A stretch of 38,604 bases of DNA from Okeania sp. KiyG1 (GTDB lineage Bacteria; Cyanobacteriota; Cyanobacteriia; Cyanobacteriales; Microcoleaceae): NCBI RefSeq assembly GCF_014132355.1, contig NZ_BLZO01000037.1, positions 1 to 38,604 of the forward strand, in the 5' to 3' direction. Both the position numbers and the translations under genes were made by a program. This document shows positions 20,696 through 30,877 of the stretch, one piece after another (the first letter of the stretch is position 1; each line of letters starts with the position of its first letter). The notes under the pieces were generated by a model. The model did no database searches and was not told the DNA's origin. It saw only the letters and a list, made by a program, of their open reading frames with translations.

Positions 20696-23308
20696 TCACT
20701 TAGCCATCACTAACTCCGATGGCAACCGCTGAAATGAAAGTCGCTCATTTTCAACATCCACAAAAATAGTGTCACCATCATTAAACTCACTACGCAAAAT
20801 ACCCTTAGCAATTTGCGTTTCTAACTCTCGCTGAATTGCCCGCTTTAATGGACGAGCGCCATATACAGGGTCATACCCAACTTCTGCTAAAAAGTCAACA
20901 GCAGCATCAGCAAGTTTCAGTGACATCTTTCGTTCAGCTAACCGTTTCTCTAGACGTACAATTTGTAATTGTACAATTTCCCGTAATTGCTCTTTCTGCA
21001 ACCCTTTGAAAATAATAGTTTCATCAATACGGTTGAGAAACTCCGGACGGAAAGCAGCACGCAACGCTTCCATGACTCGACTCTGTATTTGCTCATAGTC
21101 ATCGGTGACATCTAATATAAACTGAGAACCAATATTACTCGTCATAATAATCACGCTATTCTTAAAGTCAACTTTGTGACCTTGAGCATCAGTAACTCGT
21201 CCATCATCCAAAATTTGCAGCATAATATTAAACACATCTGGATGCGCTTTTTCAATTTCATCAAACAAAATAACCGTGTATGGGCGACGACGAATAGCTT
21301 CGGTTAACTGACCTCCTTCATCATAACCAACATATCCAGGAGGTGCCCCTATTAAACGAGACACAGAATGTTTCTCCATATACTCAGACATATCAATGCG
21401 CACCATCGCATCTTCGGTGTCAAATAAATATGCTGCCAATGCTTTTCCTAATTCTGTTTTACCCACACCAGTCGGACCGAGGAAAATAAAACTAGCTACC
21501 GGACGGTTGGGGTCTGCTAAACCTGCGCGCGATCGCTGAATGGCATCAGAAACAGCAGTGACTGCTTCATCCTGACCAATAACTCGTTGATGTAATTCTG
21601 ATTCGAGGTGTAACAGTTTTTCTTTTTCTGACTCCACCAACTTACTCATGGGAATACCAGTCCACTTAGAAATAATTTCAGCAATATCTGCTTCTGTTAC
21701 CTCTTCCCGTAACAAAGTTTGACCGCTGGTTTGAGTTGCTTCAAGTTTAGTTTCTGCTTCCTCTACTTGTTTTTGTAGATTAATCAAATTACCGTACTTC
21801 AACTCAGCAGCACGGTTAAGGTCATAATTTCGCTCTGCTTGCTGAATCTCAATATTAACTTTATCTATCTCTTCTTTGAGAGTCTGAATTGTACCAATGA
21901 TACCTTTTTCTGCTTCCCACTGAGCAGTTAGGGTGTGTTGCTCTTCTTTCAAATTAGCCAAATCTTTTTCTAGTCTTTCCAACCTTTCTTTAGAAGCAGC
22001 ATCACTTTCTTTTTGCAGTGATAATTTTTCCATTTCTAGTTGGAGAATTTTGCGGTCAATTTCATCAAGTTCCTCTGGTTTGGAAGTAATTTCCATTTTG
22101 AGTTTAGCTGCCGCTTCGTCCACCAAGTCTATCGCTTTGTCTGGGAGGAAGCGATCGCTAATATAGCGAGTAGATAGAGTAGCAGCAGCGACTAGGGAAC
22201 TATCGGATATTTTCACACCGTGATGTACTTCATAGCGTTCCTTGAGACCTCGTAAAATTGAGATGGTATCTCCTACACTTGGTTGGTCTACATAAACTTG
22301 TTGGAAACGACGTTCTAAAGCAGCATCTTTTTCGATGTATTTACGATACTCATCGAGAGTTGTTGCTCCAATACACCGGAGTTCTCCTCTAGCTAACATT
22401 GGTTTGAGTAAATTTCCTGCATCCATCGCTCCTTGAGTTGCTCCTGCTCCAACAACTGTGTGAATTTCATCTATAAATAAGATGATTTTACCGTCGGAGT
22501 CGGTGACTTCTTTAAGAACAGCTTTCAAGCGTTCTTCAAATTCGCCTCTAAATTTAGCACCAGCAATTAAAGCACCCATGTCTAAGGCGATGAGTTGGCG
22601 GTCTTTGAGAGACTGAGGAACATCTCCAGTAATAATACGTTGTGCGAGACCTTCGGCGATCGCTGTTTTGCCGACTCCGGGTTCTCCTATTAATACTGGG
22701 TTGTTTTTAGTGCGACGACTGAGTATTTGAATAGTACGTCTAATTTCGTCATCACGTCCAATAACGGGGTCAAGTTTTCCTTCACGAGCAAATTCTGTGA
22801 GGTCGCGACCATATTTTTCTAGAGCTTCATATTTACCTTCTGGGTTTTTGTCTGTTACTTTTTGGTTGCCTCTAACTTGGGAAATAGTTTCTTTGAGTTT
22901 AGCTTCATCTAGTTTAAATTCTTGATAGAGCTTTTTACCAAAGCGGTCGTCTTTGAGATAAGCAAGTATCAAATGTTCGATGGAGATATATTCGTCTCCA
23001 TATTCTTGGCGATATTTTTCGGCATTGTCTAATAAAGTATCCAGACTGCGACCTAAGTAAACATTATTGGGAGTATTTTTGACTTTTGGTTGACGGTTAA
23101 TAAAGGTGTCGGTGTATTCTTGTACTTTGGAAGTTGAAACACCTGCTTTATTGAATAGACTGGTTGCTAGTCCATTTTGTTCTAACAAAGCTTTAATTAA
23201 GTGTTCACTTTCGATTTGTTGATTTTGAGAAGTTTTAGCAATGTCAGGAGTACGGGATATTGCTTCCCAAGCTTTTTCTGTAAATTGGTTAGGATTATTT
23301 GGTTGCAT
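20696..23308 (-). CDS. clpB: ATP-dependent chaperone ClpB (Hsp100 disaggregase)
   Basis: 870 residues, full length. Order: N-domain with two repeats (about 1-145), linker, AAA1 with Walker [14 protein letters not shown] (about 208) and [15 protein letters not shown], the coiled-coil middle domain (about 405-530, Glu/Lys-rich, [21 protein letters not shown]), AAA2 with Walker [15 protein letters not shown] and [16 protein letters not shown], and the C-terminal D2 domain. The hexamer threads aggregated proteins through its pore together with DnaK/DnaJ. It starts at ATG 23308 in [13 protein letters not shown], the expected N-terminus. The first 170 residues are nearly duplicated in the fusion gene just upstream. 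The two genes also share their upstream sequence. No CIRCE operator was found in front of the gene. Confidence 0.98.
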
Positions 23309-23420
23309 AATTTTTTGGTTTTCTTGATTTTTTGTCTATATGTTTTTCTTTAATTGTAACTTGTAGCTCTGAATAAATTTTAGTAGAAAAAACCGTTTTT
23401 CTTATTGGGTATTCACCCTT
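23309..23420 (-). promoter_or_regulatory. clpB leader with GGGTGAATACCC inverted repeat
   Basis: On the coding strand the leader contains GGGTGAATACCC (23418-23407) followed by ACGGTTTTTTCTACTAAAAT. The same order occurs before the fusion gene (26269-26220). Conservation in an otherwise drifting leader may simply reflect shared ancestry. The fusion copy has TATAAT right after the inverted repeat where clpB has AATAAG. Confidence 0.5.
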
Positions 23421-23555
23421 CAGTGTAACTTGGATTAAATTTAACTTATTTTCTTTTCTCTAGCATTTTTACTAAATCAAATACTGGTCAGATAATTGCC
23501 GAAATATTGTGGTTTAAAGCCTCCCCTTTTAAGGGAATAATAAATAAAAATTTTC

Positions 23556-23821: not shown

Positions 23822-23868
23822 AGGTAATTCTAAATTCTAAATTCTAAATTCTAAATTCTAAATTCTTA
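23822..23868. repeat. AATTCTA heptamer run overlapping the 3' end of the fusion gene
   Basis: GAGGTAATTCTAAATTCTA... with six heptamers, running into the last codons of the fusion gene (stop at 23844). The C-terminal residues KNLEFRI are encoded by the repeat, so the original stop was probably lost or replaced. Confidence 0.8.
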
Positions 23869-26159
23869 AACCTTTCGGGAAACCAAACAGTAAATGTATA
23901 TCCTTTTCCAGATTCATGTTTACGTTCCAAACTAATTTTTGCCCCCATCATCTCACATAAACCTTGACATATTTTTAATCGATCTGAGGAAGAGCTAAAA
24001 TCATACGTCCTAGTAAAACCAGGTTTATATAGTTCAGATAGGATATAATAAGTATAAGGTTTAAATATATCTTGTAACTTTTCTTCTGTCATACCAATAC
24101 CAATATCAGTATTGCTGACCTGAAAAACTATGTAATTTTGTGCATTATTCAATGACTCGACATTTCGATTTTGATGACCTTGTAGTTTCTGATTATTTAC
24201 TCTTTCTACACTGAATGTAATTACATCACCTTTTGTCGATGTAGCTACATCATCCAGTAAATTCATCAGTACCTCTCTCACTTTTGGCAGGTCTGCATAC
24301 ATATTACCCAGATTTTCTCCTAAGATTAATTTGAAAGTATTCTTGTTTTTCTCTGTAATATTCTTCACTCGATCGACCACATCTTGAATTAGCTGATTAA
24401 CATCAATATTTTCTAAATCAAGTGTAATTTGACCAGTTTCTATTTGGGCAATATATGAAAAATCGCTAATGGTTTTTAGGAGGTATGTAGCACCAATATT
24501 TATCGGTTCTAGAAGTTCCTTTAGGTCTATGGTGAAATCATTATCTCCTATTTCACAAGCTTTTTCATTAAGAATTTCAGCCTCTCTAATAATCGCATTT
24601 ATTAGGGGTGTACGAAATTCATTGATTAATCCAAGTCTTGCGAAGATAGAAACTTTTGCTGCTTTTGCTTTGATTGTAGCTTCCTGGAATTGTTTTATAT
24701 ATCTTGCTAATTCTTCTCGACTATATATTTCAGAAGTTTCATACTTGCATTCTAGGTTTTTGTCTGTTACTTTTTGGTTGCCTATAACCTGGAAAACAGT
24801 TCTTTCAAGTTTAAATTCATCAAGTTTCAAGTCTTGGTCATTATTGCCAAAGCGTAATGTCTCATTCATTCTTTCTGGAAACCAAACAGTGAATTTTGAA
24901 CCTTCTCCGTATTCACTTTCCACATCAATTTTTGCCCCCATTATCTCACAGAAACCTTGGCATATTGCTAATCCTAAACCTAAACCACTACTATAGCTAC
25001 AATGGGTAGTTAAAGGTTCAAATATATCTTTTAACTGTTCTTGTGTCATACCAATACCAGTATCGCTGACCTGAAAAACTATGTAATTTTGTGCATTACT
25101 CAATGACTCAGCATTTTGATTTTGATTATTTCTTAGTTTTTGATTACTTACTCTTTCTACACTGAGTGTAATTAAACCATCTTTTGTAAAATTCTCTGCA
25201 TTATCCAGTATTTTTCTAAGTACGCATTTCACGTTTGTCATATCTGCATACATTGTACCTAGGTTTTCTCCTAAGACTAATTTGAAGCTATTGCGGTTTT
25301 TTGCAGTGAATTTTTTGGCTGTACAAACCACATCTTCAACTAGCTTATTAACCTCAAGACTTTCTAAATAAAGTATAACTTGACCTGCTTCTATTTTAGA
25401 AATATCTAAGATATCCCAATTCATTTCTAGGAGGTGTGTACCTGCTAGCTTAATTCTTTCGAGAGCGGAGATAAAATCTTCATCTCCTACTTCCACAGCA
25501 TCCTCATACAGAAGATCGCTATAACCAATAATTCCATTTAGGGGTGTACGCAGTGTCCTAATCATGTTGTGTGGAAAAACACTTGAAAAATATTTTGCTT
25601 TTTCTACTTCAAGTCTAGCTTCCTGGAGTTGTTCCAAATATTTTGCTAATTCATCACGATGGTCTTTTTCCAAAGCTTTGTATTTGTCTTCGGGATTTTT
25701 GTCTGTTACTTTTTGGTTACCTCGAACTTGAGAAATGATTTCTTTGAGCTTTGTTTCATCTAATTGAAATTCTTGATAGAGATTTTTGCCAAAGCGGTCG
25801 TCTTTGAGATAAGCAAGTATGAAATGTTCGACGGAGATATATTCGTCTTTATATTTTTGACGATTTTTTTCGGCATTGTCTGATAAGGTGTCGAGACTGC
25901 GGCCTAAGTAGATATTGTTGGGTGTATTTTTAACTTTGGGTTGACGGTTAATAAAGGTATCTGTATATTCTTGTACTTTGGCAGTTGAAACCCCTGCTTT
26001 GTTAAATAGACTTGTTGCGAGTCCATTTTGTTCTAACAAAGCTTTCATTAAGTGTTCGGTTTCAATTTGTTGATTTTGGGAAGTTTTAGCAATTTCAGAG
26101 GTACGGGATATAGCTTCCCAAGTTTTTTCTGTAAATTGGTTAGGATTATTTAGTTGCAT
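23844..26159 (-). CDS. ClpB N-domain fused to two histidine-kinase-like (pseudokinase) modules
   Basis: 771 residues, one open frame. Residues 1-167 are a near copy of the ClpB N-domain and linker ([17 protein letters not shown]...[19 protein letters not shown]). Residues 168-430 resemble the DHp/ATPase part of the kinase at 27765 (LRTPLNGIIGYSDLL, DISKIEAGQV, VSDTGIGMT, GLGLGLAICQG, FTVWFPER). Residues 450-765 repeat the ClpB linker (GNQKVTDKN) and the kinase part. The phosphoacceptor His of SHELRTP is Arg (about 201) in module 1 and Asn (about 513) in module 2. Module 1 keeps the N, G1 and G2 boxes and could bind ATP. Module 2 lost them (NLLDDVA, SNTDIG, no GxGLGL). No transmembrane segment. 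It may be an adaptor or inhibitor using ClpB's substrate-binding N-domain, or a by-product of recombination. The intact frame over 2.3 kb argues for some constraint. Confidence 0.9.
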   Translation of the reverse strand: MQLNNPNQFTEKTWEAISRTSEIAKTSQNQQIETEHLMKALLEQNGLATSLFNKAGVSTAKVQEYTDTFINRQPKVKNTPNNIYLGRSLDTLSDNAEKNRQKYKDEYISVEHFILAYLKDDRFGKNLYQEFQLDETKLKEIISQVRGNQKVTDKNPEDKYKALEKDHRDELAKYLEQLQEARLEVEKAKYFSSVFPHNMIRTLRTPLNGIIGYSDLLYEDAVEVGDEDFISALERIKLAGTHLLEMNWDILDISKIEAGQVILYLESLEVNKLVEDVVCTAKKFTAKNRNSFKLVLGENLGTMYADMTNVKCVLRKILDNAENFTKDGLITLSVERVSNQKLRNNQNQNAESLSNAQNYIVFQVSDTGIGMTQEQLKDIFEPLTTHCSYSSGLGLGLAICQGFCEIMGAKIDVESEYGEGSKFTVWFPERMNETLRFGNNDQDLKLDEFKLERTVFQVIGNQKVTDKNLECKYETSEIYSREELARYIKQFQEATIKAKAAKVSIFARLGLINEFRTPLINAIIREAEILNEKACEIGDNDFTIDLKELLEPINIGATYLLKTISDFSYIAQIETGQITLDLENIDVNQLIQDVVDRVKNITEKNKNTFKLILGENLGNMYADLPKVREVLMNLLDDVATSTKGDVITFSVERVNNQKLQGHQNRNVESLNNAQNYIVFQVSNTDIGIGMTEEKLQDIFKPYTYYILSELYKPGFTRTYDFSSSSDRLKICQGLCEMMGAKISLERKHESGKGYTFTVWFPERFKNLEFRI

Positions 26160-26275
26160 ATTTTTTCGTTTTTCTTTAATATATTTTTCTTTAATTTATT
26201 TAAAATTAAATTGTAGTTTTGCAGAAATTTTAGTAGAAAAAACCGTTTTATATTATAGGGTATTCACCCTTGGGT
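26160..26275 (-). promoter_or_regulatory. Leader of the fusion gene, copied from clpB, with TATAAT
   Basis: On the coding strand GGGTGAATACCC (26269-26258) is followed by TATAAT (26257-26252), then ACGGTTTTTTCTACTAAAAT as in clpB. A good -35 box is not seen at the usual distance, so an alternative sigma factor or activator is possible. The predicted leader is about 85-90 nt. Confidence 0.5.
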
Positions 26276-26477
26276 GTTATAACGCTACGCCCAGGCAACA
26301 GGCAATAGGCAACAGGCAATAGAGGGGAATAAAAAGCTTATGATATAAGACTTTTATCTATTGGACACCTTCTTAATTTGTAAATATGCCAGCGCACATT
26401 GCTTTATTTTGATTAAATTTAACTGATTGTTTTTTCCTAGATTTTTTGAATTAAATGGTATTTAATTCATTACTATT
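26276..26477. other. Gap between fusion leader and kinase-fusion relic
   Basis: Contains AGGCAACAGGCAATAGG repeats (26291-26322) and AT-rich sequence. No gene recognised. Confidence 0.4.
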
Positions 26478-26672
26478 TCTGGAAACAAAATAGTAATTTG
26501 ACAATTTTTTCTGACGTACTTTCTACATGAATATTTGCTCGTATTATTTTATATAAATCTTGATAATTTCTCCAGTTTGTTCTAATCAAGTTTTGATTAA
26601 GTGTTTGGTTTCAATTTATTGTTGGGAGATTTTGCTAAAATGCTGTGTCTTAGCGATCGCTTCCCAAATTTT
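26478..26672 (-). pseudogene. Relic of another ClpB-N / histidine-kinase fusion
   Basis: The block 26573-26672 aligns with the 5' coding region of the fusion gene (26029-26130): both share TTTGTTCTAA, ATTAAGTGTT, GGTTTCAATTT and GCTTCCCAA at the same spacing. Directly joined to it, 26478-26575 aligns with the end of a kinase module (TTTCTGGAAAC of WFPE; ACTTTCTACAT; ATTATTTTATATAAATCTTG in place of the MGA/CQ coding stretch). All sequence in between is deleted. No open frame remains. It lies between the intact fusion and the intact kinase in the same orientation. Confidence 0.75.
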
Positions 26673-27069: not shown

Positions 27070-27764
27070 ATTGAATACAAATTTAAAAATTCATGCTATT
27101 CAAATCCTTTGTTTATCCTAGTTAGTAACTCCTGAATTCTGTTTGCGGAGCATGACTGAGGAAATTCTAAATTCTAAATTCTAAATTCTAAATTCTAAAT
27201 TCTGAGTTACGAATTTAAAAATTCATGCTCTTCAAATTCTTTGTTTATCCTAGTTAGTAACTCCTGAATTCTGTTTGCGGAGCATGACCTAGGAAATTCT
27301 AAATTCTAAATTCTAAATTCTAAATTCTGAGTTACGAATTTCAAAATTCATGCTCTTCAAATTCTTTGTTTATCCTAGTTAGTAACTCCTGAATTCTGTT
27401 TGCGGAGCATGACCTAGGAAATTCTAAATTCTAAATTCTAAATTCTAAATTCTGAGTTACGAATTTCAAAATTCATGCTCTTCAAATTCTTTGTTTATCC
27501 TAGTTAGTAACTCCTGAATTCTGTTTGCGGAGCATGACCTAGGAAATTCTAAATTCTAAATTCTAAATTCTAAATTCTGAGTTACGAATTTCAAAATTCA
27601 TGTTATTCAAATCCTTTGTTTATCCTAGTTAGTAACTCCTGAATTCTGTTTGCGGAGCATGACTGAGGAAATTCTAAATTCTAAATTCTAAATTCTAAAT
27701 TCTAAATTCTAAATTCTAAATTCTAAATTCTAAATTCTAAATTCTAAATTCTAAATTCTAAAGC
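27070..27764. repeat. 125-bp tandem array, five units, with heptamers and palindromic motif
   Basis: The motif GTTTGCGGAGCATGAC occurs at 27141, 27273, 27398, 27523 and 27648: spacing 132, then 125 three times. Each unit holds TTCAAAT(T/C)CTTTGTTTATCC, TAGTTAGTAACTCCTGAATT, the GCGGAGCATGACCTAGGAAA motif and 4-5 AATTCTA heptamers. After unit 5 the heptamer run extends to about 14 copies and stops just before the kinase stop codon. The 132-bp interval has one extra heptamer. Confidence 0.95.
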
Positions 27765-29495
27765 TTAGATGATTACTCTTTCTGGAAACCAAACAGTAAA
27801 TGTAGAACCTTGCTCTGATTTACTTTTAACATAAATTCTTGCCCCCATCCTTTCACACAAACGTTGACATATTGCCAACCCTAAACCAGTACCACCATAT
27901 CGACGAGTCGTAGAAGCATCTGCTTGAGTAAAAGGTTTAAATATATGCTTTAACTGGTCTTCTGTCATGCCAATACCAGTATCAGACACCCGAAAAACTA
28001 TGTAATTATTTGAATTATTAAACGACTGTAAGTTTTGATTTTGAGAACTTTTCACCTTCTTACTTACTCTTTCCACACTCAAAGTAATCAAACCATCTTG
28101 TGTAAACTTAGCTGCATTACCCAATAAATTTATCAGTACTTGTCTGACTTTTGGCATATCAGCATACATTGTACCTAAATTTTCTCCTAACAGTAATTTG
28201 AAGCTATTACGGTTTTTTTCTGTGAGATTTTTTGCTGTACCAACTACATCTTTAACTAACTGTTCAACTTCAATACTTTCTAAATAAAGTGTTACTTGAC
28301 CTGCTTCAATTTTGGAAATGTCTAAGATATCACTAATCATTTCTAGAAGGTGTTTACCTGCAATCTTAATTCTATCTAGATCCGGCATAAAGTCTTCATA
28401 TCCTTCTTCTTCAGCTTCTTCATGAAGAATTTCACTATATCCAATAATAGCATTTAAAGGTGTACGAAGTTCATGACTCATGGTGGCTAAAAAAGCACTT
28501 TTAGAACGGTTTGCTGCTTCTGCTCTCAGTTTAGCTTCCTGGAGTTGTTCAGTGTATTTTGCCACCTTACCAATTAATTCATTGAGAGATAAGGTTAATT
28601 GTCCTATTTCATCTTCTGTAGTGACAGGAAGTTGTAGCTCAAAGTTAGCTTCTTCTGTCACTTGTTGGGCAACTTTGATGATATCTTTAAGGGGAATCAC
28701 GATGGAACTGCTGGTATAAATAGCCATTATTACTGCAATAATTATCGATAGTAGTAGGCTACCTATTAATATTTTAATTCCTAATGCTTCTGCTTTTTGA
28801 TAATCTCTAAATCCTTGTTCTACTCTTTGATTAAATAATGTAGTTAACTTTTCTGAATCTTGTGATAATTTTTCTAGTTTTATTACTACTTCACTATTAG
28901 TAATTTGACTAAGTGATCTTGATGATAAACTCTCTACTTCTGTTGTTTCAGGAGCAGTTTCTACTTGTTTTTCAGGAGGAATTTGTTTAATTTCTTGAAC
29001 TAAATTTTCTAATTTTTGAATATAGACTGCTACAGGGTTAAAATAATTATCGATAAATTCTTGAAGCGGAACATAGTATTTTTTATGCAGACTTTTATCT
29101 TCGACTTTTGGTATTAATTGAAGTTGCTTGAAAATAGTATTAATCTCATAAATACTTGATAATTCTTGGGATATTTTTGCTTCTAAAACTTTCCGGTCAT
29201 TAACTAATTTTGGCCGCTCTTTTTGAATTATATTCACCTTCAATGCTTTTGTTGTGAGTTTCGTGAGTAAATTTACCTGTGCTTGGGCCTGCTCTATTTG
29301 TTCTCTAATTTGATGTTTATAATTCAACTCAAATATTCGCCCTGTCAGTACTCCTAAAGTAGCAACGGCGATCGCTAATATATAGCCAAAACTTATTTTC
29401 TTTCTGATTCCTATGCTACTAGACAGATTTTTCGATCCGGTTTTCTCTCGGATTGTAGACTGTTTTTCTGATGTAGAAGTTAAAGACATCTGCAC
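27765..29495 (-). CDS. Membrane sensor histidine kinase with HAMP domain
   Basis: 576 residues. Membrane helices at about 36-52 and 239-262 enclose an extracytoplasmic helical sensor of about 185 residues. HAMP domain about 264-316 (PLKDIIKVAQQV...DEIGQLTLSLNELI). DHp domain with FLATMSHELRTPLNAIIGYSEIL, phosphoacceptor His about 341. ATPase domain with N box INLLGNAAKFT, G1 VSDTGIGMT, F box FKPFTQAD and G2 GGTGLGLAICQ, all intact. It ends WFPERVII. No receiver domain is fused and no response regulator is in the window. The catalytic half is the closest relative in the window to the two degenerate modules of the ClpB-N fusion. The right end of a tnpB element lies 39 bp upstream of the ATG, so its promoter may have been altered. 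Confidence 0.95.
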   Translation of the reverse strand: MQMSLTSTSEKQSTIREKTGSKNLSSSIGIRKKISFGYILAIAVATLGVLTGRIFELNYKHQIREQIEQAQAQVNLLTKLTTKALKVNIIQKERPKLVNDRKVLEAKISQELSSIYEINTIFKQLQLIPKVEDKSLHKKYYVPLQEFIDNYFNPVAVYIQKLENLVQEIKQIPPEKQVETAPETTEVESLSSRSLSQITNSEVVIKLEKLSQDSEKLTTLFNQRVEQGFRDYQKAEALGIKILIGSLLLSIIIAVIMAIYTSSSIVIPLKDIIKVAQQVTEEANFELQLPVTTEDEIGQLTLSLNELIGKVAKYTEQLQEAKLRAEAANRSKSAFLATMSHELRTPLNAIIGYSEILHEEAEEEGYEDFMPDLDRIKIAGKHLLEMISDILDISKIEAGQVTLYLESIEVEQLVKDVVGTAKNLTEKNRNSFKLLLGENLGTMYADMPKVRQVLINLLGNAAKFTQDGLITLSVERVSKKVKSSQNQNLQSFNNSNNYIVFRVSDTGIGMTEDQLKHIFKPFTQADASTTRRYGGTGLGLAICQRLCERMGARIYVKSKSEQGSTFTVWFPERVII

Positions 29496-29618: not shown

Positions 29619-30877
29619 TTAAAGACGTCTGGGCCCTACCGCCCTATTTTTGATATTTATCGCGGCATTTAAGTCGCGGTCTATTACTATGCCGCAGTAC
29701 GGGCAAGAATGAGTTCGTATGTTTAATTCTTTATCGACTTTTTCACCACAATTTGAGCAATTTTGGCTGGTATTTTTGGGATTTACTCCTATAGTCTTCA
29801 CCTCCAGCATTTCCGGCTTTGACAGTTAAAATAGACAGGAATTGTCCCCCAAATCGCATCGTTAATTGATTTACTTAAACGAGTCTTTGCTAGCCCTTTG
29901 ATATTTAAGTTTGCCTCCGGCACGCCGCTCCGCGTCTGGGCGATAACTTCGGCTTTTAATAACAATTCATTGGCTGTTTTGAAATGAAAGTCTTTACGTT
30001 TATCAGCAACTGCTTGGTGCGCGTTCCCTCTCTTGGTCAGCATTCCGCAAGCGAGCTGTCGTCGTCGCGGGGTCGCATCCGCCTTTTTATGTTGTTTGGC
30101 TACAGCTTTAACAGCTTTTAACCATCTTTTACTACCTTTCTTTTTACGAGATAAACGTTTCTTTTGAATCTTTAGTCGCTGCTGATAAGAGCGGTAGTAT
30201 TGAGGGATGGGGATAGATTCTCCTTCACTTGTTACTAAGAATTCCTTTAGCCCCATATCAATTCCCAGGGTGTTTTTTAATTTAGGTTCCACTTTAGTTG
30301 TTAAAGCTGGAACTAATTTGTCTTCTAGGGATAAAGTTACATAATAACCATCTGCTTTACGACTAATTGTCGCTGTTTTAATTTGAAAACTATCAGGTAG
30401 CGGTCGATGTTTAATCAACTTGATGTTGCCTATTTTTGGCAAATTAATTTGATTTTCTTCTATGCAGTCTTGCTTGATTTGAGGATAAGTAAAACTGCGA
30501 TAACGCCCTTTTCCTTTAAATCTTGGTTTTCCTAATTTTCGTCCTTTTTTGTCTGTTTTCAACCATCTATCAAAGGCAAGTTTTACCCGTTTTATGCAAT
30601 CCTGCAGGACCTGAGAGTGAATTAGCTTGTATTCCGGAAATTTGTCTTTGGTATTGACTAAATCTTTTTTTTGAGAGTAATAATTTGGATTATCTCTGAG
30701 TTGAGGAATTGGCGTTACTAAGGGGCAGGCGTTAACTGGACAACGGTTTTCCGACCACCATGAGAATCTTTCACCCAACCTATAGTTGTACTGCCGACGC
30801 AATAATTCTAACCACGTTTCTATGGTGGCTATTTGCTCTTTGTTGGGTCTTAATTTATATTGGTAGGCAGTGCGCAT
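29619..30877 (-). pseudogene. tnpB: IS200/IS605-family tnpB (copy 2), frameshifts and in-frame inserts
   Basis: Closely related to the copy at 14665. The frame from 30877 runs MRTAYQYKLRPNKEQ through LGIDMGLKEFLVTSEGE and LNIKGLAKTRLSKSINDAIWG, then diverges where one extra G is present (GGGGG instead of GGGG, near 29845). Another +1 follows near 29805; the zinc-finger end (NPKNTSQNCSNCGEKVDKE, CPYCG, DRDLNAAINIKNRA) is in the last frame. Two extra stretches are not in copy 1: about 24 residues (DATPRRRQLACGMLTK...) at about 30010-30085 and about 7 residues (RSGVPEA) near 29912-29935, both GC-rich repeats that keep frame. The second lies directly beside the RuvC Glu. The 5-nt difference in end position from copy 1 is minor. 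Confidence 0.87.
30010..30085. repeat. In-frame GC-rich palindromic insert in tnpB copy 2
   Basis: Contains GGTGCGCGTTCCCTC, GCATTCCGCAAGCGAGCTGTC and GCGGGGTCGCATCC. A shorter version (GCGACCCCGCGACGACGCCA, then GCTCGCTTGCGGAACGCG) occurs at 37723-37770 inside the third tnpB at a different place in the gene. Confidence 0.75.

Follow-up and report, generated by a model that had tools for sequence, protein, structure and literature searches.

A chimeric gene joining a ClpB N-domain to two histidine kinase-like modules between a kinase gene and clpB in Okeania sp. KiyG1

How does a gene arise that starts as the disaggregase ClpB and continues, twice over, as a histidine kinase, and what, if anything, does its product do? 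Such a gene lies between an intact kinase gene and an intact clpB in Okeania sp. KiyG1, on contig NZ_BLZO01000037.1, of which a stretch of 38,604 nucleotides was analysed (hereafter, the window). The genome that contains the window, an assembly of 11 Mb in 198 contigs, is referred to as G000, and its relatives by other G numbers. Photosystem II family genes, which among 14 control genomes were matched only in Synechococcus elongatus, are present in G000 and mark it as cyanobacterial. The gene is an open reading frame of 771 aa with an ATG start (23844–26159, minus strand). As had been proposed in an earlier note on this DNA, the same domain order was sought in related genomes, and open frames with this architecture were present in G002 and G005. 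Our best reading of these sequences is that the gene would be a translated, fast-evolving, and dispensable chimera.

Results

The first 167 codons of the chimera (25659–26159, minus strand) encode a ClpB N-domain and the start of its linker, assigned by identity to ClpB and by the finding of Clp_N twice. Over residues 1–165 the identity to the N-domain of the neighbouring ClpB (23308–20696) was 87.9%, bearing out the near-copy of ClpB described in the earlier note. Module 1 (24852–25658, minus strand) follows, with kinase-like DHp and CA parts recognized by HisKA and HATPase_c, and shared 63.8% identity over 265 aa with the catalytic half of the kinase encoded at 29495–27765 and 77% DNA identity with the 3′ part of that gene. 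Beyond this lies a second joint (24705–24851, minus strand), a remnant of the ClpB linker (GNQKVTDKN) and of the end of the N-domain, identified both from ClpB identity and as the start of an internal repeat; here, a 43-aa stretch ahead of module 2 was 62.8% identical to ClpB 122–164. Module 2 (23847–24704, minus strand) was assigned from kinase identity and motifs, with 51.2% identity over 281 aa to the catalytic half of the same kinase. The earlier picture of two kinase-like modules, with the ClpB linker repeated before the second, was therefore correct.

The alignment placed IRTLRTPL at the acceptor site of module 1 (His>Arg) and INEFRTPL at that of module 2 (His>Asn), the same two replacements that had been noticed before. 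Module 1 retained the N, G1, and G2 boxes for ATP binding, although its lid is shortened, and in the G000 copy of module 2 these motifs were eroded, with neither the N-box Asn nor a G2 box. The claim that ATP boxes were kept in module 1 and lost in module 2 thus holds for the G000 copy; module 2 of G017 differs in that it largely retains them. Pfam matches over cut-off comprised two stretches of Clp_N, a single HisKA confined to module 1 (203–259), and two stretches of HATPase_c. The Pfam scan detected no AAA family in the chimera and no HAMP, the latter being present in the parent kinase. The NCBIfam model chaperone_ClpB covered residues 9–169 alone, at 121.5 bits versus a cut-off of 1232.1. 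Hence, of the features of a ClpB, the chimera has the Clp_N repeats and not the two AAA modules or the middle domain. Of those of a HisKA kinase, it has the N, G1, and G2 motifs in module 1, not in module 2 of G000, and neither the phosphoacceptor His nor a parent-like HAMP sensor part. The chimera also shows the combination typical of a histidine pseudokinase, a HisKA/HATPase_c fold with a replaced acceptor, and the set of Pfam matches, without the parental HAMP part, agreed with the earlier description of pseudokinase modules on a ClpB N-domain. A single-sequence AlphaFold model of the chimera was unusable (mean pLDDT 34.5).

On the coding strand, the kinase (29495–27765) comes first, then the chimera (26159–23844), then clpB (23308–20696). 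The neighbour genes, which are the parents as judged by similarity, are both intact and on the minus strand: the kinase of 576 aa (27765–29495) has HAMP, HisKA with its His, and HATPase_c by Pfam, and clpB (20696–23308; 870 aa) was identified by Pfam and by chaperone_ClpB over its NCBIfam cut-off. Of the 20 genomes mapped, 17 have the kinase upstream of clpB and in the same orientation; in the remaining three, either the kinase was split over two contigs (G001, where its 3′ end is upstream of clpB) or the partner gene was off the fetched contig (G009, G021). We regard this adjacency as an old linkage, and the kinase may be a regulator of clpB. Several other features were observed at this locus. 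The kinase is followed by a repeat of about 125 bp in tandem and by TTCTAAA heptamer arrays (27076–27765), the same heptamer encodes the C-terminal residues and stop codon of the chimera (23837–23866), and an IS605 OrfB-like transposase gene is located directly upstream of the kinase (29798–30877, minus strand).

The chimera contains an internal repeat (24871–25796 against 23872–24854, 69.8% DNA identity) that begins inside ClpB codons, which is why GNQKVTDKN is present twice. Both joints, by our reading of the alignment, fall at short matches between the parents. Two tandem duplications across the kinase–clpB border would account for every joint. In the order that we propose, the kinase would have preceded clpB on a single strand in the ancestor. 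A first tandem duplication, running from the kinase interior into clpB, would have fused the clpB start, together with the element upstream of it, in frame to the DHp and CA parts and left an intact parent on either side of the chimera. Module 2 would have come from a second tandem duplication, which began near ClpB codon 121, extended through the end of the kinase part, and eliminated the inner stop. The resulting product would be cytoplasmic and would combine two DHp modules per chain with a single ATP-binding CA, while having no phosphoacceptor. Between the chimera and the kinase, a 165-bp relic (26469–26633, minus strand) fuses a scrap of ClpB N-domain (26571–26633; 81.8% over 66 nt) to a scrap of a module-2 end nearest the G002 type (26469–26576; 81.7% over 109 nt), and therefore at least two units were once present at the locus. 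The earlier note proposed neither the duplications nor a second unit. We are fairly, though not highly, confident that the gene is a chimera built locally by two duplications, kept translatable, weakly constrained, and often lost.

The duplicated segment included sequence upstream of clpB. Specifically, homology between 25665–26277 and 22814–23426 (86%) covers the N-domain and the 118 bp that precede the ATG, so that the chimera and clpB have a 118-bp upstream region in common (26160–26277 for the chimera, minus strand; by homology and alignment). Within it, a pattern search of the window found the element GGGTGAATACCC 99 nt before the chimera ATG (26258–26269, minus strand) and 99 nt before the clpB ATG (23407–23418, minus strand). 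These were the only two matches in the window, where 0.16 would be expected with one mismatch allowed. The element is inverted-repeat-like. GGGTRAATACCC had three matches genome-wide, before the chimera, before clpB, and within the coding frame of an ATP-synthase-beta-like gene (assigned from ORF reading). A wider regulon of GGGTRAATACCC was considered and rejected, as genome-wide there was nothing besides clpB and the chimera. Among 13 genomes of two genera, a longer form, GGGTRAATACCCWATAA, was located before clpB in nine (G000–G005, G017, G022, and G035) and missing there in G011, G026, G029, and G032; it was also found ahead of the headless copy in G017. The element before the chimera was exact in G000, had one base changed in G002 and G005, and was unrecognizable in alignments of the region before the broken G022 and G004 copies. 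Because the clpB upstream region was copied, the chimera is perhaps made together with ClpB.

We found the joint of head and module 1 in frame in three of 62 family genomes (G000, G002, and G005), and the joint of modules 1 and 2 in five, namely these three, G035, and G017, the last with a stop. Across 389 genomes of the order (149 genera) the full architecture was present in three and no further chimera was found, among the matches listed, where a full chimera would be expected to rank high. Pieces of the chimera occurred in nine of 18 kinase–clpB gaps (G000–G005, G017, G022, and G035) and in none of the other nine (G008, G011, G012, G014, G018, G026, G029, G032, and G036). In six of the nine trace-bearing genomes the copy was broken, reduced, or represented by scraps. 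Specifically, the head had been deleted in frame in G017, where the stop lies between the modules, and lost in G035, where the locus has assembly gaps; the G022 and G004 copies were broken; and G003 and G001 held module-2 ends only. A search of genome contigs with the full chimera returned two loci, both unrelated, and in searches of viral contigs, module 1–linker–module 2 as the query gave no matches. A tblastn search of plasmids matched 3052 records, in four of which one region spanned 80% or more of the query, with three at 60–80% identity, and the best eight of the 3052 all matched from residue 170, that is, the kinase part.

Other frames with Clp_N were noted as well. G000 encodes a 401-aa ORF (contig C153, locus L093, 5635–6840, minus strand) with two Clp_N repeats, four 17-aa repeats, and an FtsH_ext domain, overlapped by a 1286-aa ORF (L093, 1802–5662, minus strand) with two AAA stretches and TPR-like repeats. 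In a search of the 62 family genomes with the 401-aa ORF (E 1e-40), the remaining matches extended over its Clp_N part only. A 2417-aa ORF in G026 (contig C113, locus L092, 77–7330, plus strand) had four Clp_N stretches, TPR-like repeats, and a C-terminal CHAT domain.

In phylogenetic reconstruction, module 1 sequences formed one clade (100/97) and module 2 sequences another (100/99), and the 19 parent kinase rows separated at 87/93. As to the genus of origin, module 1 sequences grouped with g7 kinases only at 60/59 and with both kinase groups at 79/86, and a grouping with g1 kinases was not rejected (p-AU 0.49). The copies of G002, G005, G035, and G022 clustered across two genera. Between G002 and G035, dS was 0.090 for module 1 and 0.128 for module 2, whereas the kinase gave 0.528 and the ClpB core 0.575. 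A weakly constrained gene is here more alike than its conserved neighbours, which points to exchange between genera, and the G002-type copy seems to have moved in this way, probably by recombination through the flanks. Identity between G002 and G022 was 0.79–0.86 in the kinase, 0.92–0.95 in the comparable chimera parts into the clpB start, and 0.86–0.92 in later clpB. Strictly vertical descent of the G002-type copies was disfavoured by the dS values.

We then considered whether the product is still under selection, for which several lines of evidence were available. Between G000 and G002 no stops were seen, versus a mean of 25.45 and a minimum of 13 in 100 unconstrained simulations from G000; between G002 and G005 there were again none, versus a mean of 3.2, with zero reached in 8/300 runs. 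Gaps in the G000–G002 DNA alignment were multiples of three, save one pair of 14 and 46 that sums to 60. With stops absent and gaps preserving the frame, the product has been kept translatable in these lineages. Pairwise dN/dS for G000–G002 was 0.78 in module 1, 0.77 in module 2, and 0.79 for modules plus linker, indistinguishable from simulations of a neutral but stop-free gene (medians 0.78–0.86). Other module pairs gave 0.57–0.96, and those lying furthest into the lower tail of the simulations were module 1 of G000–G017 (0.63; 11/200 and 24/200 simulations as low) and module 2 of G002–G035 (0.57; 18/200 and 33/200). For the whole chimera the pairwise value was 0.62 (1/200 and 8/200 simulations as low). 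A codon likelihood fit to five sequences gave omega below 1 for module 1 (0.54, p 0.00015) and module 2 (0.64, p 0.0022), with 0.50 and 0.53 for their respective CA parts and 0.61 (p 0.038) and 0.81 (p 0.37) for their DHp parts; in comparison, the parent kinase part had an omega of 0.11, and the N-domain one of 0.06 in ClpB and 0.22 in the chimera. Although the two approaches differ in how clearly they show constraint, both place it some three- to sixfold below that of the parent kinase part. The earlier note had held that a lack of homologues combined with neutral dN/dS throughout would mark a chance fusion in decay: homologues exist, most pairwise values were not separable from neutral, and by likelihood both modules fell below 1, moderately so.

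The alternative that survives best is that the gene is a non-functional duplication scar in slow decay, still open by chance in three genomes. Most module pairs do look neutral in the pairwise tests, most trace-bearing genomes no longer hold a full copy, and the private changes in the N-domain, counted below, are nearly all replacing. The explanation that we prefer is itself weakened both by the fit of the G000–G002 module values to neutrality without stops and by the full form being found in 3/62 genomes, with broken or reduced copies in G017, G035, G022, and G004 and scraps in G003 and G001. Against a scar stand the missing stops, the likelihood omegas below 1 in both modules, and the upstream element, which persists without a change in G000 and ahead of the headless copy in G017, and we consider this account unlikely, although it deserves some weight.

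Less credit is due to the proposal that the product acts through its N-domain as a competitor or adaptor of ClpB. The N-domain is nearly that of ClpB, the common upstream region could provide co-expression, and its dN/dS was low both pairwise (0.20, with 0/200 simulations as low at either kappa) and by likelihood (0.22). A strongly constrained N-domain, initially suggested by these two ratios, was set aside after private changes were counted, that is, bases present in no ClpB row. G000 had 0 synonymous and 6 replacing private changes, and G002 and G005 together had 1 and 23, a count in which some common changes enter twice and one entry is a first-codon artefact. ClpB controls had 11 and 10 (in seven of 19 rows; G001 alone had 5 replacing). 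Relative to controls, Fisher tests gave p 7e-5 for the intact copies pooled (1 to 29) and p 0.054 for G000 alone. The low N-domain ratio thus seems misleading and inherited from ClpB history, the head having probably been refreshed from ClpB and then relaxed. Moreover, the second Clp_N repeat of G002 and G005 carries a 16-aa insertion. The headless copies of G017 and G035, which retained their modules, together with the replacing private changes, suggest that the N-domain is not the part kept by selection, and action through it appears rather improbable.

A catalytically competent kinase using an alternative residue is very improbable. The ATP motifs of module 1 were kept in 5/5 copies (in G017 with one G2 Gly replaced by Ser), and the acceptor site of module 1 is still His in G017. 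It is, however, Arg in G000 and Pro in G002, G005, and G035, and in module 2 it is Asn in 5/5 copies. Finally, an assembly artefact, conceivable where three related repeats lie within 10 kb and might be joined wrongly, deserves practically no credence given the identical order and joints in G000, G002, and G005, with G000 20% divergent in DNA from the other two.

Discussion

The product of the translatable, weakly constrained chimera that we prefer is probably a pseudokinase partner or decoy. The modules rank before the head as the useful part because two copies dropped the head and kept the modules (G017 with a stop between them), and ATP binding by module 1 is plausible given the retention of its boxes in all five copies. 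Upon clpB induction, the paired DHp modules might pair with, or titrate, the neighbouring kinase or its response regulator, and the ClpB head would contribute aggregate binding at most. That the product works as a pseudokinase through these paired DHp modules is the likeliest mode of action, though one that we advance tentatively. A fuller version, that of a single-chain pseudo-dimer built by tandem duplication and bearing a ClpB head, in which one half binds ATP and neither is phosphorylatable, expressed from the clpB promoter, feeding the state of proteostasis back onto the kinase and spreading between genera by recombination via its conserved flanks, is decidedly doubtful.

Related genomes display most of the stages of this gene, from intact parents and full chimera to headless and broken copies and scraps, with the parents adjoining as references, and so offer a view of the making and loss of a new gene. 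The chimera also represents a natural two-module pseudokinase in one chain, and a test case for DHp pairs as a kinase decoy.

Several known systems invite comparison. DivL is an established cell-cycle regulator with a single module, in which the phosphoacceptor is replaced. One report describes this Caulobacter protein as a histidine pseudokinase (PMC4211667). Module 1 matched the DivL structure PDB 4q20 at E 1.5e-15, and DivL and the chimera are alike in their HisKA/HATPase_c fold and replaced phosphoacceptor. Unlike DivL, the chimera has a ClpB head, two modules per chain, and weak constraint. With the Hsp100 disaggregase ClpB, the chimera has the N-domain and linker in common, but it is without the AAA module.

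If the modules pair with the neighbouring kinase or act as its decoy, ChrS of Corynebacterium glutamicum could serve as a precedent by analogy. According to the study of that protein, an inactive ChrS, which arose in laboratory evolution by a frameshift in the CA domain, heterodimerises with an intact paralogous kinase and alters its output (PMC9491836). In contrast to ChrS as described there, the chimera lost the acceptor site and kept the CA of module 1. A kinase beside clpB is, likewise by analogy, plausible as a regulator, since Hik34 of Synechocystis regulates clpB1 and, according to its report, is without transmembrane domains or conserved ATP-binding motifs (PMC4390874). Compared by description only, both are kinase-like with a link to clpB, and Hik34 differs, according to the same text, in keeping its H1 acceptor box.

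A search of the open literature (one library, by titles and the starts of abstracts) returned no described family with a ClpB N-domain and two kinase modules, consistent with the earlier statement that no such layout was known. For its origin, one comparison is a chimeric gene of Staphylococcus aureus that reportedly arose by tandem duplication and involves other genes (PMC3486894). The origin of the chimera is ordinary, and its outcome is unusual.
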